From Candidatus Wolfebacteria bacterium (GTDB lineage: Bacteria > Patescibacteriota > Minisyncoccia > Phycocordibacterales > EsbW-18), in contig JAKEFG010000001.1 of the NCBI GenBank assembly GCA_022616195.1, positions 1 through 58,843 of the forward strand: a stretch of DNA of 58,843 nucleotides. Reading direction: 5' to 3'. A program made the position numbers and the translations under genes. This document shows, piece after piece, positions 13,170-22,813 of the stretch (its first letter is position 1; each line of letters begins with the position of its first letter). The notes under the pieces are model-generated. The model had not been told where the DNA came from. It saw only the letters and a program-made list of their open reading frames with translations, and searched no databases.

Positions 13170-14398
13170 TCCTCACCTGCAACCGGTTCGAGTTGCACCA
13201 ACCATAACGACCCATCCCGTTTGTTGACGAATGAAAGTGAGCTACCGTCATCGCTCACGGATGGCGACACCATATCGATGGCCTCGCCGAAGTCGAATAA
13301 GTCGGCAATGAGAACTGCGAGTCCGGTCTCAGTGTCTATTTGCCACAGTGAGTCGGAAAGAGAGATGGTGCCACGGTACCATGAATCCGGCATGTCCACA
13401 GGGAGCGCATCCGGTACACCACAGTACACAACAGACGATAGAGACGTTCCCCACACACACTTCTCAGGGACCGTGCGAACGGAAAAGTGTTGTGTCACGC
13501 CACTATCGAGTATTGTTCGTTTGAGGAACATACCATCATCTGCTGACGCATAGATGACTGCGGTGCCGTCCTGATTTATGTTTGTTGTGAGGCCGCGCAA
13601 CCCAGCGAGCACTTTTGAGAACGAGCCGCTCTCAAGGGAGAGCAAGAAGAAGTATCCCGGAACGTTCCCGGACGGCTTTGTCGTCATGCCGATTACTTCG
13701 CTCCCTCCCCACTGCGGCAACCACTCACGCAGCAGCGAGGTAAACACCGATCTCACCGTGCCGTCAAGCAGTGTAATGTTACCCAGACTTCCGTCAGGAG
13801 TTCCAGTGAGGGAGAATACACCGCCCTCGGGGTTTGCGGCAACAGCGAGGAGGTTTGGCGGCAGAAAGTCGCCCGTGAGAAGCCCTCCTGTGCTGGTTCC
13901 CGCCGGTTCATGAACATTTCCCACAAACGTTTCAACGACGTTGGTGTCCTCCTCAAGATACTGCACAAACAGCCGGAGGGGGTCGATCCATACGGCGTTC
14001 TGTATTCGCGGGACGGTAGTGTTACTGACCGGAACTATCACTGTCGATGTCGCATACGCATCAAAGATGTGCCCGGTTGCTCGGTCGATGTAGCGGAGCA
14101 CCAACTTTCCATTCCGTTCGGTAAACACCGCCGCGGCGACCGGATCGGGCACCACCTGTCTCACGGGCGGGACAAATACCCCACCAGCATTGGTTGTTGT
14201 GCCGCCTTCGTCGGCATCGGTGTCGGTCTCTGCCTCGCCACCGAACAAGCCGAGCGGAAAGAACGTTCTGCCACTGTCTTCTGTAGAAGACGCAGTCTGT
14301 TCCCCATCATCACTTGTGGTGTAGAAGAAGATATACCACCCGACAGCTGCTGCTGCGGCGAGGAGAACTATGAAGATGGTGACAAATGTTTTTTTCAT
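13166..14398 (-). CDS. Secreted/membrane-anchored beta-propeller-like protein
   Basis: N-terminal TM (MKKTFVTIFIVLLAAAAAVGWYIFFY), Thr/Ser-rich linker, propeller-like repeats. Confidence 0.55.
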   Translation of the reverse strand: MKKTFVTIFIVLLAAAAAVGWYIFFYTTSDDGEQTASSTEDSGRTFFPLGLFGGEAETDTDADEGGTTTNAGGVFVPPVRQVVPDPVAAAVFTERNGKLVLRYIDRATGHIFDAYATSTVIVPVSNTTVPRIQNAVWIDPLRLFVQYLEEDTNVVETFVGNVHEPAGTSTGGLLTGDFLPPNLLAVAANPEGGVFSLTGTPDGSLGNITLLDGTVRSVFTSLLREWLPQWGGSEVIGMTTKPSGNVPGYFFLLSLESGSFSKVLAGLRGLTTNINQDGTAVIYASADDGMFLKRTILDSGVTQHFSVRTVPEKCVWGTSLSSVVYCGVPDALPVDMPDSWYRGTISLSDSLWQIDTETGLAVLIADLFDFGEAIDMVSPSVSDDGSSLSFVNKRDGSLWLVQLEPVAGED

Positions 14399-14415
14399 AA
14401 AAACCTCACCCCGCA

Positions 14416-15312
14416 TTACCTTCCGGAAATCTGACATGGTTGCCCGTAACAAATATGCCAATGCATTGACTCTTTTAAGTACTCATTGTTGCCGTGTTTG
14501 TAAATTATCCCAGCCGATGTATCTTCCGAACTGTCGGCATTGAACATTACCCATGAGTTAAAGTTACCGTTGTTGTCGTCCACATCGACGAATGGTATGC
14601 CCGGACCGTGGGTTAGGTGACCTATTGTCTCAGCACCACCCGTGACAATGATGGCACCACACCCGTTATTGTCAGTTCCGTGACCAATGACCACGTCGCA
14701 CGCATTTTTTGCTCCGATGAGACCACCAATTGCCTGTTGTGGTAGACCTGCGAGGTCGGCACAGGGACGAGTACCAGCGTTGCACGGGGCGACAACACCA
14801 ATACCCTCACCGAGCAGTCGTTCGCGTAGCTCAGCTTCTAGTGGTGTTGGGGGTAGCCCGCCCCCTGGGGCACCCGGTGGTGGAACCTGTCTCCCTACTT
14901 GATCGGTGACACGCTGGAGTGTGTTGACAATATCAAACCGCACAAGGGCGGGGTTGATGGTTTGGAGCAGGAGGAACGCGCCGAGCGCGAGGAGTAGTCC
15001 CCAGAGCGCGTCCTGAATCTTTTCCCGACCAGCGTCCTTCTTGAATATGCTTTCCGAGCCCATATATTCCACACCGCCGATGACTATCATGAGCACCGCT
15101 AAGCCGGTTGCAATGCCAAGCGCGAGCTTGAAGATTCCGTCGAGGTAGCTGCCGAGATTCGGGGCTTGTTCGCCAGCGCTCCCGATGCCCGGCAAGCTCT
15201 CCAGAAGTATTACGTTGGTGTTGCCTTGTTCTTCGGCAACGGTAATGAGGGGTGTAGCGGCCGGTGTCACAAGCAGCAGTAGAACGGCGAGTATGGTGAA
15301 AAAATGTTTCAT
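14416..15312 (-). CDS. VirB2/TrbC-like membrane protein fused to a C-terminal extracellular domain with M15/hedgehog-like motifs
   Basis: Signal peptide, two TM helices (FKLALGIATGLAVLMIVIGGVEYMGSES... IQDALWGLLLALGAFLLLQTINP), Cys-containing domain with HGPGIPFVDVD and MHWHICYGQPC. Confidence 0.55.
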   Translation of the reverse strand: MKHFFTILAVLLLLVTPAATPLITVAEEQGNTNVILLESLPGIGSAGEQAPNLGSYLDGIFKLALGIATGLAVLMIVIGGVEYMGSESIFKKDAGREKIQDALWGLLLALGAFLLLQTINPALVRFDIVNTLQRVTDQVGRQVPPPGAPGGGLPPTPLEAELRERLLGEGIGVVAPCNAGTRPCADLAGLPQQAIGGLIGAKNACDVVIGHGTDNNGCGAIIVTGGAETIGHLTHGPGIPFVDVDDNNGNFNSWVMFNADSSEDTSAGIIYKHGNNEYLKESMHWHICYGQPCQISGR

Positions 15313-19082: not shown

Positions 19083-19502
19083 TTACTTTTGTTCATTCGT
19101 TTGGTCGTGTACGTCCAAACTCCATGCTAAATCTTTTAGTTTGCTATCTGAGAGTTTGGGAACGTAGAGCGCATCTTGTGTCGCCGCCCCGACCTTGCCC
19201 GCGTCTGGTTTTTTGGGTTCTTTCTTCCAAATGTAGAGACGGCTTGTAGTGAAATACTGGAAAAAAGCCGCGAGAACGTCAATGAACGGCTTGTTGTTGT
19301 ATTTATAAAATGCAAGCGCGATGGCAAGACCTGCGGCAACGGCCATCAAAGGAAGCGCGATGAGTACGGGCAGGAAGGTGTAGAGCAGGAACGCGAGTCC
19401 CGCGCCGCCAGCGAGATAAACGAATTGTTTGAAGGTCAGAGGACCGATGACCTTGTCCTCTACCTCAATAAATTGTGGCACCTGGAATCTCATACTTCGC
19501 AT
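19083..19502 (-). CDS. PrgI family (VirB3-like) membrane protein
   Basis: MRFQVPQFIEVEDKVIGPLTFKQFVYLAGGAGLAFLLYTFLPVLIALPLMAVAAGLA. The true start may be the second Met at 19493. Confidence 0.82.
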   Translation of the reverse strand: MRSMRFQVPQFIEVEDKVIGPLTFKQFVYLAGGAGLAFLLYTFLPVLIALPLMAVAAGLAIALAFYKYNNKPFIDVLAAFFQYFTTSRLYIWKKEPKKPDAGKVGAATQDALYVPKLSDSKLKDLAWSLDVHDQTNEQK

Positions 19503-19522
19503 GCGAAGTATGAGATTCCAGG
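19481..19522. repeat. 42-bp perfect palindrome overlapping the prgI start
   Basis: CCTGGAATCTCATACTTCGCA/TGCGAAGTATGAGATTCCAGG. Confidence 0.95.
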
Positions 19523-19527
19523 AAGTT

Positions 19528-19545
19528 CAAATGTCAAATGACAAA
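19528..19545. repeat. Left 18-bp inverted repeat flanking the four-helix-bundle ORF
   Basis: CAAATGTCAAATGACAAA, exact reverse complement of 19937-19954. Confidence 0.95.
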
Positions 19546-19567
19546 TGTTAAACGATGTGTTCATACC

Positions 19568-19951
19568 TCATGAATTCAACTTTGTATTAGAAATAATCGT
19601 TGAGAATATCTTAACAAACTCTTCTGCCTCTTGATAAAAATATCGACACTCTTGTTTCTTATCCTGATTGGCTCGAGCGATAACCCGCATCCAGTACATT
19701 GTTTCTTTCGCTTCCTTTCGAGAAATACCTATCTTGTGTACAAAATCCCTTTTTGATTCGGCGACATCGGCTTCCATATAGTTTGCTCCGATACTTGTTC
19801 CTGATTTTGTCGCTTGGTATACCAGCGGTCGGTTTATGGTATCCCGGGACAGTGTTTTCAAGAAAGTTATAAGATTCTCTGAGAATTGTGCTGTGCGTTC
19901 TGCCAAATCATATTCTTTCCCTGTGTGTTTTTGGATTTTGTCATTTGACAT
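19568..19951 (-). CDS. Four-helix-bundle protein (S23/IVP family)
   Basis: MSNDKIQKHTGKEYDLAERTAQFSENLITFLKTLSRDTINRPLVYQATKSGTSIGANYMEADVAESKRDFVHKIGISRKEAKETMYWMRV, the typical family pattern. Confidence 0.88.
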   Translation of the reverse strand: MSNDKIQKHTGKEYDLAERTAQFSENLITFLKTLSRDTINRPLVYQATKSGTSIGANYMEADVAESKRDFVHKIGISRKEAKETMYWMRVIARANQDKKQECRYFYQEAEEFVKIFSTIISNTKLNS

Positions 19952-19954
19952 TTG
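19937..19954. repeat. Right 18-bp inverted repeat, overlapping the four-helix-bundle start codon
   Basis: TTTGTCATTTGACATTTG, exact reverse complement of 19528-19545. Confidence 0.95.
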
Positions 19955-19960
19955 GATTTA

Positions 19961-19991
19961 TCGAATGATTTTACCGTACAAAATCATTCGA
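19961..19991 (-). terminator. 12-bp hairpin overlapping the stop of the upstream ORF
   Basis: TCGAATGATTTT-ACCGTAC-AAAATCATTCGA. Confidence 0.5.
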
Positions 19992-20607
19992 TGGGTTCCC
20001 GGTACGGATCTTGCGCGGCGGGTGGTGCATGAGGCACATCTCTATCCAGGGCAACACGGTGCTTCTCTGTCTCAGTGTGCACGGCCCCTTTGAGTTTTGC
20101 TTCAACTATGTCGCGCGGCATTGTGCGCTCGACGCCCGGGGCTGATGTTGTGGTCCTGGATGTGGGTGCGAATCCCGGTTCTTTCAGGGATGTTTCCGGC
20201 AGTGGAGTGTCAGCTTGTGTACGTTCCAATGTTTGCTCCTCGTGTTGTTCCCGGCTTTCTTCATCCCAGAGTTGTTTGAGCGACTCGCGTATAGGAGTGA
20301 AAATGAGGCGGTTGACGTCGTTGGTGACTGCCGCGGCGGACTCCGGAGAGAATTTTGCGTGTCGCTCCAGGTTACGCCCGAAATCCTCCAGGGGCTCTAC
20401 GCCGAGAAGCGCGAGCATGGTTTCGTTTTCCAGTGTTTTACTTTCGTCAACGCGCAGGTGGTTTTTCTGCGCAATTTCAAGAAAGTGCGTGTCAAGTTGT
20501 GAGTCGCTGATTGCGCGCTTTAGATCTGCCGGAAGCATGGAGAGCCGTTCGGCAATGATGCGCTCAAATTCGATGTCGCTTATTGGTTGTGTGTTATTTA
20601 TTTTCAT
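19984..20607 (-). CDS. T4SS-cluster protein of unknown function
   Basis: MKINNTQPISDIEFERIIAERLSMLPADLKRAISD... Start chosen at an internal Met; overlaps the end of the VirB6-like gene. Confidence 0.6.
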   Translation of the reverse strand: MKINNTQPISDIEFERIIAERLSMLPADLKRAISDSQLDTHFLEIAQKNHLRVDESKTLENETMLALLGVEPLEDFGRNLERHAKFSPESAAAVTNDVNRLIFTPIRESLKQLWDEESREQHEEQTLERTQADTPLPETSLKEPGFAPTSRTTTSAPGVERTMPRDIVEAKLKGAVHTETEKHRVALDRDVPHAPPAAQDPYREPIE

Positions 20608-22813
20608 CTGGTTTTGGTTCTTCTTTGGGTTTTTCATCTGGTTTTTCTTTCTCTTCACCCTTCAAAATTTTCTCAACTGCCTCTTTAATTTGTGCCTCCG
20701 GCGTCTTGCCGCGGAGAGCTTCTCTTGCGTTATCGCGCTGTGCCCGTCCCGAGAGGGTCAGGCGGCTCGCGCCGAGATCGCGCTCCGAGGAGAGGCGTTT
20801 CTGGAGCTTTTCCATCACCGCGCGCTCGGCCTGGACCGTGCGGTACTCGCGGTACGCGAGCGCATACTCTTTTTTCTCGACATTAACGGACTGGTCGAGT
20901 GCCGCCTGCAGTTCGACCACCCGCGCCGTGTCTCCCTTCTGCTGCGCCGCAACGAGCTTATTCACCAGGTTGTCGATATTCCCTCGGATAGTGCCCGCTT
21001 CTTGCGAGGTGACGGTTCGTGCGGCATCGACAAGCCGTTTTTCGCTCCCCTGCTCCCACTTGTACTTCTCTCGTTCTTGCTCCAGCTTCAGGCGTGCGCG
21101 AAGAACGTTGTTTTCTAGGGCCAGACGCTTGGGGCTGGTGGTTTGCGTTTGGGCGAGAAGTCTCTTCTGTTCCGCCAGCTCTGCCTTGGCTCTTCTTACG
21201 GGCTCGCGGCGGGCGCGCTCCACGGCTGCCGCGTCAGAAAGCTTCTTCTCCTCATCCAGCCGCTTTCGCCGGTCCTTGAGAAGCTTCTCATAGCCGCCAC
21301 GCTTCGCCTGCCCCATCTGAATGCCCGGTATGCCGAACGTACTCCGCGCGTCAAAGCTCGCCTTTTGGGTCCAGTCGCCAGTTCTCAAAAGACCGCGACC
21401 GAGCATTCGTGCGGCAACATTTTGAGAGCCGGCGAGATTACCGGCAAATTTCGATTCCCGGAGTGCTGCGCCCGCCAGCCCGAAAGTCCTGCGTCCGACC
21501 GCAGCAACAGTGCCGAACGTCGCCTTCCCGGCCATCTTGGTCGCCCAGTCCACGGCGCCCTTGGCGCTCTTGGACGCCATTGTTTTCGCGATGATGATTG
21601 CCGCGACGAGGAAGCCGATGACGATGATGAAGTTGAACGCGATGACGATGAGATCCGCCCCCTTGAACGCCTCCGCGAGGTTGCCGAGGTCGGGTTTGTT
21701 GATTTTTTCAACGAACGTCGGGTTGCTGATGATGATGTAGGAGAGCGATGCGAGGAGCATGAAAACGGGCGCCCAGATTACCTGGTCCCAGAGGGGCGTC
21801 CACCACTTGCGTGACCACTCGCTTCCCTTAGGGAGAATGAGACCGAGAAACATCACTGGCGAGGTGACGAGGAGGATGACAAGAATCACAAAGCGTATTT
21901 CAAGAAGAATCCCGACGGCGAGGAACACGAACGCCGCAATGAGAAGGAAGATGGTCACGAAGAGCTGTCGCACGACGAGCGAAATATCGGCGAAGTCAAC
22001 TGCCTCGGCGGAGAAGAGAGTAACAAGCCGGAGGTGTTGCATGAACGCGGCGGAGAAGCCGATGAGGTTGATGTTGCCTATGTTGACTTCGGTTTCGGAT
22101 GGCGTCGAGGTGCCGGTATTTACGCGAGCGGAGGCGCCGCCCGCCGCTGCCGCGATGGGTTTGTAGAATTCGTAAGTGAGGATGTTTGATGCGTCAATGA
22201 TGACGCGGGTAAAGAAGAACGAAAAGTTGATGAGGAGTGCTGCAACGATGATACTGGCGAGCATTTTCTTGCCGCCGAAACGTTCCACACGGAGAATAAT
22301 CGTGATTGCAAGGAAGAGGAGGATGAAAATGAAGAGCGCATTCATCACGTCGCGGATGAGTTCCCACGCGATGGTGATGCTTCCAATGCTCCGTATGAAA
22401 TCCGCCGCGTGAACGACAGTGATATTGATGGCGATATTGAGCACGACCCCCGCGATGCCGAGGAGTCCTGCGGCGAACGTGACGAGTATGGCGGCGACCA
22501 CGTTCAGAATAGGACTAGTAGCTGCCTGTATCACCTTTCCGGCAGAGTCTTTAATTTCCTCAATCGGGTTTGGGTTTAGGCACCTAAATATACTATTCCC
22601 ATGAATGTCGTATGATGGCCCGGCGCAGAGAACTGGATCCGGACAGGTTGCGACACATTCATTGTAGGTAGGGTAATTTTGTGCCTCAGCGTGGGGCACG
22701 GGCAACATGAAAGACGGCACATACGCCGCGAGGAGAGTCGCCGCCACAATAAGGGCGAGTATGTACCCTTTGTTGCTGCGGGGACGCTTCTTCTGTGATT
22801 GATTGTGTTGCAT
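20594..22813 (-). CDS. VirB6/TrbL-like polytopic membrane protein with a long charged C-terminal tail
   Basis: Signal/TM N-terminus, 6 or more TM segments (GLLGIAGVVLNIAINITVV..., FVILVILLVTSPVMFLGLILP), coiled-coil tail. Confidence 0.7.
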   Translation of the reverse strand: MQHNQSQKKRPRSNKGYILALIVAATLLAAYVPSFMLPVPHAEAQNYPTYNECVATCPDPVLCAGPSYDIHGNSIFRCLNPNPIEEIKDSAGKVIQAATSPILNVVAAILVTFAAGLLGIAGVVLNIAINITVVHAADFIRSIGSITIAWELIRDVMNALFIFILLFLAITIILRVERFGGKKMLASIIVAALLINFSFFFTRVIIDASNILTYEFYKPIAAAAGGASARVNTGTSTPSETEVNIGNINLIGFSAAFMQHLRLVTLFSAEAVDFADISLVVRQLFVTIFLLIAAFVFLAVGILLEIRFVILVILLVTSPVMFLGLILPKGSEWSRKWWTPLWDQVIWAPVFMLLASLSYIIISNPTFVEKINKPDLGNLAEAFKGADLIVIAFNFIIVIGFLVAAIIIAKTMASKSAKGAVDWATKMAGKATFGTVAAVGRRTFGLAGAALRESKFAGNLAGSQNVAARMLGRGLLRTGDWTQKASFDARSTFGIPGIQMGQAKRGGYEKLLKDRRKRLDEEKKLSDAAAVERARREPVRRAKAELAEQKRLLAQTQTTSPKRLALENNVLRARLKLEQEREKYKWEQGSEKRLVDAARTVTSQEAGTIRGNIDNLVNKLVAAQQKGDTARVVELQAALDQSVNVEKKEYALAYREYRTVQAERAVMEKLQKRLSSERDLGASRLTLSGRAQRDNAREALRGKTPEAQIKEAVEKILKGEEKEKPDEKPKEEPKPDENK

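Follow-up and report, generated by a model that had tools for sequence, protein, structure and literature searches.

The S23 ORFs of rRNA intervening sequences (IVSs), the heptamers of Coxiella and the IVP ORFs in CPR rRNA insertions are already known. The 23S rRNA IVS of Coxiella burnetii has an S23p ORF preceded by three tandem heptamers (GACAGAT); rRNA IVSs sit in rRNA helices, from which they are cut out by RNase III, and the S23 protein of Xanthomonas is a ring of five (PMC4990558). Insertion sequences in CPR rRNA genes carry IVP ORFs; the study in question considered rRNA genes only and is not known to report heptad ends (PMC11270868). Separately, heptameric tandem repeats have been described in Nostoc and Xanthomonas (PMC4692102) and in Beggiatoaceae (PMC4679880); they are intergenic, show a preference for about four units, often form convergent inverted pairs in Xanthomonas, and were reported without a linked gene or source.

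Here we describe an element carrying a four-helix-bundle (4HB) gene in the window, by which we mean the whole 58,843-nucleotide stretch of Candidatus Wolfebacteria DNA that was analysed. The element resembles the rRNA IVSs in its protein family, its length of about 430 bp and its terminal inverted repeats, which are predicted to form a stem (PMC4990558). Unlike them, it lies between protein genes, outside any rRNA gene, and has the repeat unit CAAATGN; one relative (L046) does have a 4HB copy inside its 16S rRNA gene. With the CPR rRNA insertions (PMC11270868) it shares the protein domain, the occurrence in Patescibacteria and the position of the gene inside an insertion. The 7-nt units and the preference for about four of them are as in the Nostoc, Xanthomonas and Beggiatoaceae repeats, but in the present case such units form the ends of an element that carries a gene. 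With MITEs and IS elements it has in common the terminal inverted repeats, the ORF-less copies and, in cyanobacterial relatives, the precise empty sites; it differs from them in having no transposase, no fixed end sequence and no general target duplication. The protein is homologous to Avd of diversity-generating retroelements (DGRs) and has the same four-helix fold; Avd, however, adjoins a reverse transcriptase, whereas none adjoins the window element, the only RVT_1 match of the genome being on contig C20. In contrast to RAYT/REPIN systems, the element has no Y1 gene, and the Y1 gene on contig C17 of the same genome has TTGGGAATC palindromes. A search of open-access papers found no prior account of such an element outside rRNA, of subfamily-specific heptads or of the breadth reported below, and the novelty of the non-rRNA element is accordingly provisional.

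The 4HB gene and its arms

The sole ORF of the element (19568-19951, minus strand) encodes a 127-residue 4HB protein that matches PF05635 (E 5e-14) and TIGR02436 (E 9e-21), the 23S_rRNA_IVP/S23 type. An AlphaFold2 model has four helices with a mean pLDDT of 90.6, and the closest solved folds are 2rld and 2gsc, followed by DGR Avd; 2gsc is the S23 protein Xcc0516 of Xanthomonas campestris, a species whose genome has GGGAATC heptamers. No transposase, nuclease or other catalytic protein is encoded within the element. Downstream lies the T4SS gene prgI (19083-19502, minus strand; PF12666, E 4e-12) and upstream a gene of the T4SS cluster (19984-20658, minus strand), which is without a family match and ends in ...DPYREPIE*. 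Both are outside the element, in agreement with an earlier note that had placed the 4HB gene between a T4SS-cluster gene and prgI. In genomes without the insert, the DPYREPIE-type gene end sits about 20 nt before prgI.

The same note had reported perfect 18-bp inverted repeats around the ORF, and both are exact: CAAATGTCAAATGACAAA at 19528-19545 and its exact reverse complement at 19937-19954. The inverted repeat can be extended to 19523-19545/19937-19959, and the limits of the whole element, estimated from its arms, are 19523-19959 (about 437 bp). Each arm consists of tandem 7-nt repeats, the two being inverted to each other. The 5' arm (19937-19954, sense on the minus strand) reads CAAATGT-CAAATGA-CAAA and contains the ATG of the ORF, as had been noticed. 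Within the ORF its series of CAAA heptads continues with CAAAATC-CAAAAAC as far as about 19927, giving CAAATGT-CAAATGA-CAAAATC-CAAAAAC for the full arm in the direction of the gene. The 3' arm (19528-19548, plus strand) reads CAAATGT-CAAATGA-CAAATGT, of which 18 bp are the exact reverse complement of the 5' arm; the CAAATGA units pointed out earlier are thus real and belong to the tandem heptads of both arms. RNA folding predicts an 18-bp stem closing around the ORF (z -5.5).

The earlier note had considered a low-complexity origin of the arms possible; the repeat is confined to this locus and so is not low-complexity sequence scattered through the genome. Allowing up to 3 mismatches, the arm repeat was found in the whole 631-kb genome only at these two sites and at one overlapping, shifted match, and no CAAATG repeat was found elsewhere in that genome. 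The separate search for inverted repeats of any sequence covered 602 kb of it. In dinucleotide-shuffled versions of the window such matches averaged 0.06, and by a rough estimate a given gene would be flanked within about 60 nt by perfect 18-bp inverted repeats about 1e-6 times.

Two further structures lie just outside the element. A 42-bp perfect palindrome (19481-19522), predicted to form a hairpin, spans the prgI start and is made up of the first codons of prgI and their reverse complement. A hairpin of 13 bp with a 7-nt loop (19960-19992) covers the 3' end of the upstream gene; in a genome of another family (L029) a different palindrome occupies the same gene end, also beside a 4HB insertion.

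The window genome has five PF05635 genes, all with inverted ends of short tandem repeats, mostly of period 7, and with a different unit at each. At the four other copies the units are of the GCCTAAT type, the ACCCTAA type, an 8-nt TTAGTTTA and the CGAAATT/TTCGNNN type, the last being the most degenerate. The genome also contains dispersed, REPIN-like perfect palindromes of about 32-44 bp without an ORF, of the type CTATTCCTAAATTCTTAAGAATTTAGGAATAG and with period 8 (C4 1866, 2630, 12624 and 28172; C5 246 and 56740; C6 17408; C7 1149 and 11469; C9 11366 and 11449; C12 15167; C14 10903). On contig C17 (about 13990-14755) a Y1 (RAYT-like) transposase gene is accompanied by three CTTGGGAATC-type palindromes, which lie within the gene and next to it, and contig C20 (2703-3305; L028) carries a reverse transcriptase together with an Avd-like 4HB relative, a pair that is probably a DGR.

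Heptad ends across relatives and phyla

Among 134 4HB genes with full flanks in order-level relatives, 81% had matching inverted ends by local alignment; the figure was 2.0% for the 588 genes that served as controls and 3.6% when left and right flanks were paired by permutation. Self-matching of the flanks peaked at lag 7, where the rates were 0.40 and 0.39 and the background about 0.29, the signal recurring at 14 and 21, and most arms held 4-5 heptads. The median size of 108 such elements was 446 bp, and in 88 of the 108 both neighbours were co-directional with the 4HB gene. In about 40 relatives almost every 4HB copy shared this plan and differed in its letters. Hence the expectation that the same inverted repeats would surround related 4HB genes holds for the presence of inverted ends but not for a fixed sequence, each element having its own unit; as judged by sequence comparison, the constant feature is the 7-nt period and not the letters.

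The family occurs in 204 of 380 genomes of the window's phylum, some with at least 12 copies. In named genomes elsewhere, the same layout was seen in Bacteroidota (76% of 25), Bacillota (86% of 14), Acidobacteriota (9 of 9) and Pseudomonadota (3 of 3), as well as on cyanobacterial plasmids. Detectable arms are missing at about a fifth of 4HB genes, including some DGR Avd relatives, and no heptad ends were found at the Avd-like relatives beside reverse transcriptases (L028, L049-L052); because these relatives lack them, the ends belong to the IVP type and not to the fold. One element (L321, 1492-1860) is flanked by genes for ribonucleotide reductase subunits, both of which run in the other direction, and co-orientation is therefore not required. 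On an Anabaena plasmid (L325, 1100-1450), about 300 bp of GGTGACA/GGGAACA heptads precede a 4HB gene situated between cas6 and cas4; a related plasmid (L346) has neither the heptads nor the 4HB gene.

The arms were then compared between pairs of 4HB genes. Where the proteins were at least 60% identical, arms were common to 52% of the pairs with non-homologous neighbours (119 pairs) and to 54% of those with homologous neighbours; at less than 40% identity the figure was 1.1%. In the subfamily of the window protein (motif S..S..[AS]N..E[AT]), tandem CAAA/AAAC was present in 6 of 9 members and in 0 of 105 others (p 3e-8), and in the NYIEGYA subfamily tandem TAAC was present in 4 of 6 and in 0 of 108 others (p 2e-6), both p-values being optimistic since the motifs were defined after inspection of the sequences. 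At the level of sequence, these comparisons show that the arms are part of the element and travel with the gene, and that the unit follows the protein subfamily. The layout had been read earlier as that of a minimal terminal-repeat cassette, a reading upheld by arms that follow the 4HB gene between unrelated contexts, by orthologous T4SS spacers that are mostly empty and by the nearly identical cyanobacterial plasmid sites seen with and without an insert.

Empty and filled sites

Orthologous T4SS loci do not always carry the 4HB gene. It lies directly upstream of prgI in 9 of the 50 genomes with a usable prgI locus and is absent from that position in the other 41, the shortest empty spacers being about 20 nt (L076, L077). 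T4SS loci are a pronounced hotspot: of the roughly 55 4HB genes from 41 genomes, about 9 lie within about 1 kb of prgI. A single orthologous clade of prgI-linked 4HB genes was considered and is not supported by the protein tree, on which these genes are scattered (24 changes among 25 rows); the tree is poorly resolved (113 columns) and the number of independent insertions is a guide only. ORF-less heptad arrays were present in the 4HB-free prgI spacer of 6 of 19 genomes with 4HB elements elsewhere, compared with 1 of 22 genomes without such elements (p 0.036); L142, the single exception, is a truncated 4HB relic.

On cyanobacterial plasmids of 90-97% identity the same spacers are seen both empty and filled. 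One conjugation-gene spacer is AAAAAGTAATTAACAAAT in its empty form (three plasmids at about 97% identity) and AAAAA-GTAAT-[element]-GTAAT-TAACAAAT when filled, which corresponds to a 5-bp duplication. At a second spacer the sequence would allow a duplication of 4-5 bp (TTCTA), a string to which the heptad is itself similar, and the remaining sites are less clean, leaving GTAAT at one cyanobacterial site as the only clean target duplication. One plasmid has a truncated relic, and on another an ORF-less hairpin with the same heptads is inserted within a 4HB gene, with a possible 4-bp TTGA repeat as judged by eye. On four Nostoc plasmids (L341, L324, L342, L347) the content of one spacer downstream of a TraM-like gene varies, being a full element, its ORF-less version or an unrelated heptad hairpin. 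Nostoc ATCC 53789 is among the strains with several copies.

No statistical excess of target-site duplications was found beside the arms of the 108 Patescibacteria elements. The earlier suggestion that T4SS loci with and without the gene would reveal excision and target duplication is thus borne out for the empty spacers, which are common, and not for the duplication in Patescibacteria. We infer the insertion of the window copy from distant orthologous spacers that are empty, as opposed to a near-identical empty site, and comparison of genomes likewise points to the mobility of these elements as a group.

Nature of the element

Collectively our data make it very probable that the window element belongs with the selfish insertion elements of the rRNA IVS kind, although it resides in a protein operon. 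It is made up of a single 4HB gene of the S23/IVP type with an arm of 7-nt repeats at each end, the two arms being inverted, and was inserted, we suppose, into a spacer of roughly 20 nt upstream of prgI. The element would be transcribed with the operon, and its arms would pair into the predicted 18-bp stem around the ORF. The 4HB protein, a ring of five by homology, may bind the heptads in tandem, of which an arm typically has 4-5, and in this way recognise its own element, with cutting and joining presumably supplied by another component of the cell.

Might the gene instead be an ordinary, vertically inherited member of the T4SS operon, with repeats that are incidental or form a local hairpin for operon regulation? 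The T4SS hotspot and the co-directional neighbours in 88 of 108 cases agree with this, but with 41 of 50 loci lacking the gene directly upstream of prgI, with prgI-adjacent copies that are scattered over the tree and have unrelated arms, and with such arms also framing 4HB genes elsewhere, in the setting of rRNA, CRISPR or ribonucleotide reductase, we regard it as highly unlikely. Another reading, in which slippage during replication and repair templated by a hairpin (quasipalindrome correction) produce heptads at any small hairpin and the 4HB gene only tolerates them, also seems very unlikely. Several genomes have an excess of heptanucleotide repeats, for which slippage by a polymerase with a 7-nt footprint has been proposed (PMC4679880, PMC4692102); arms that match within an element and differ between elements would fit as well. 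Against this, such ends occur at only 2% of the control genes from these genomes, the unit follows the protein subfamily, and the arms move with the gene between contexts. Slippage may still account for the drift of the unit and the continued matching of the arms.

The remaining alternatives concern the means by which a selfish element would move. RNA-mediated mobility, with a cellular reverse transcriptase copying an IVS-like RNA much as Avd works with the DGR reverse transcriptase, is suggested by the similarity of fold to Avd, the predicted closed RNA stem and the orientation with the host operon. It is improbable nonetheless: across 197 genomes 4HB elements showed no association with reverse transcriptase (p 0.31; p 0.67 with one genome per family), a result on which we rejected this enzyme as a partner, and several near-complete genomes with 2-5 copies have no reverse transcriptase. 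A more specific form of the preferred explanation, in which a non-autonomous element is moved in trans by a Y1 (HUH) transposase and the 4HB protein is a targeting or hairpin-handling partner, is possible if rather doubtful. Y1_Tnp was present in 37 of 41 genomes with 4HB elements and in 17 of 47 without (odds ratio 16, p 2e-7, one genome per family). Genome size did not explain this association in the 41-genome check, and rve transposases, taken as a general mobile-element control, showed no association with 4HB elements. However, no Y1 was detected in 19 of 95 4HB genomes, and a duplication of 5 bp, as seen at one site, does not resemble the insertion of IS200/IS605 elements. Furthermore, no heptad ends were found around Y1 genes, which have hairpin or palindromic ends of their own, and the link may therefore be indirect. 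The Y1 transposase is the only tested candidate with statistical support, in the form of a correlation.

Returning to the selfish insertion element, the presence of 4-5 heptads per arm, private to a protein subfamily, suggests that the ring could read one heptad per subunit. We tentatively extend this to a broader proposal, which is possible, though less likely than not. Each of the five subunits of ring-shaped S23/IVP 4HB proteins would read one heptad of its own element, as TRAP does with GAG/UAG repeats, and ring and heptads would co-evolve. These elements would then be a pan-bacterial mobile class of about 0.45 kb that is mobilised in trans, possibly through a Y1 transposase, and would supply, as ends or ORF-less copies, many of the unexplained heptanucleotide repeats in cyanobacteria, Xanthomonas and Beggiatoaceae.

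For the family, the annotation 'four helix bundle protein, function unknown', found in many phyla, would give way to a testable proposal, that of a self-recognising mobile element. Three loose ends that were described separately, namely rRNA intervening sequences, S23 proteins lacking a function and heptanucleotide repeats lacking an origin, would be joined, and the element-specific heptads predict a binding code.
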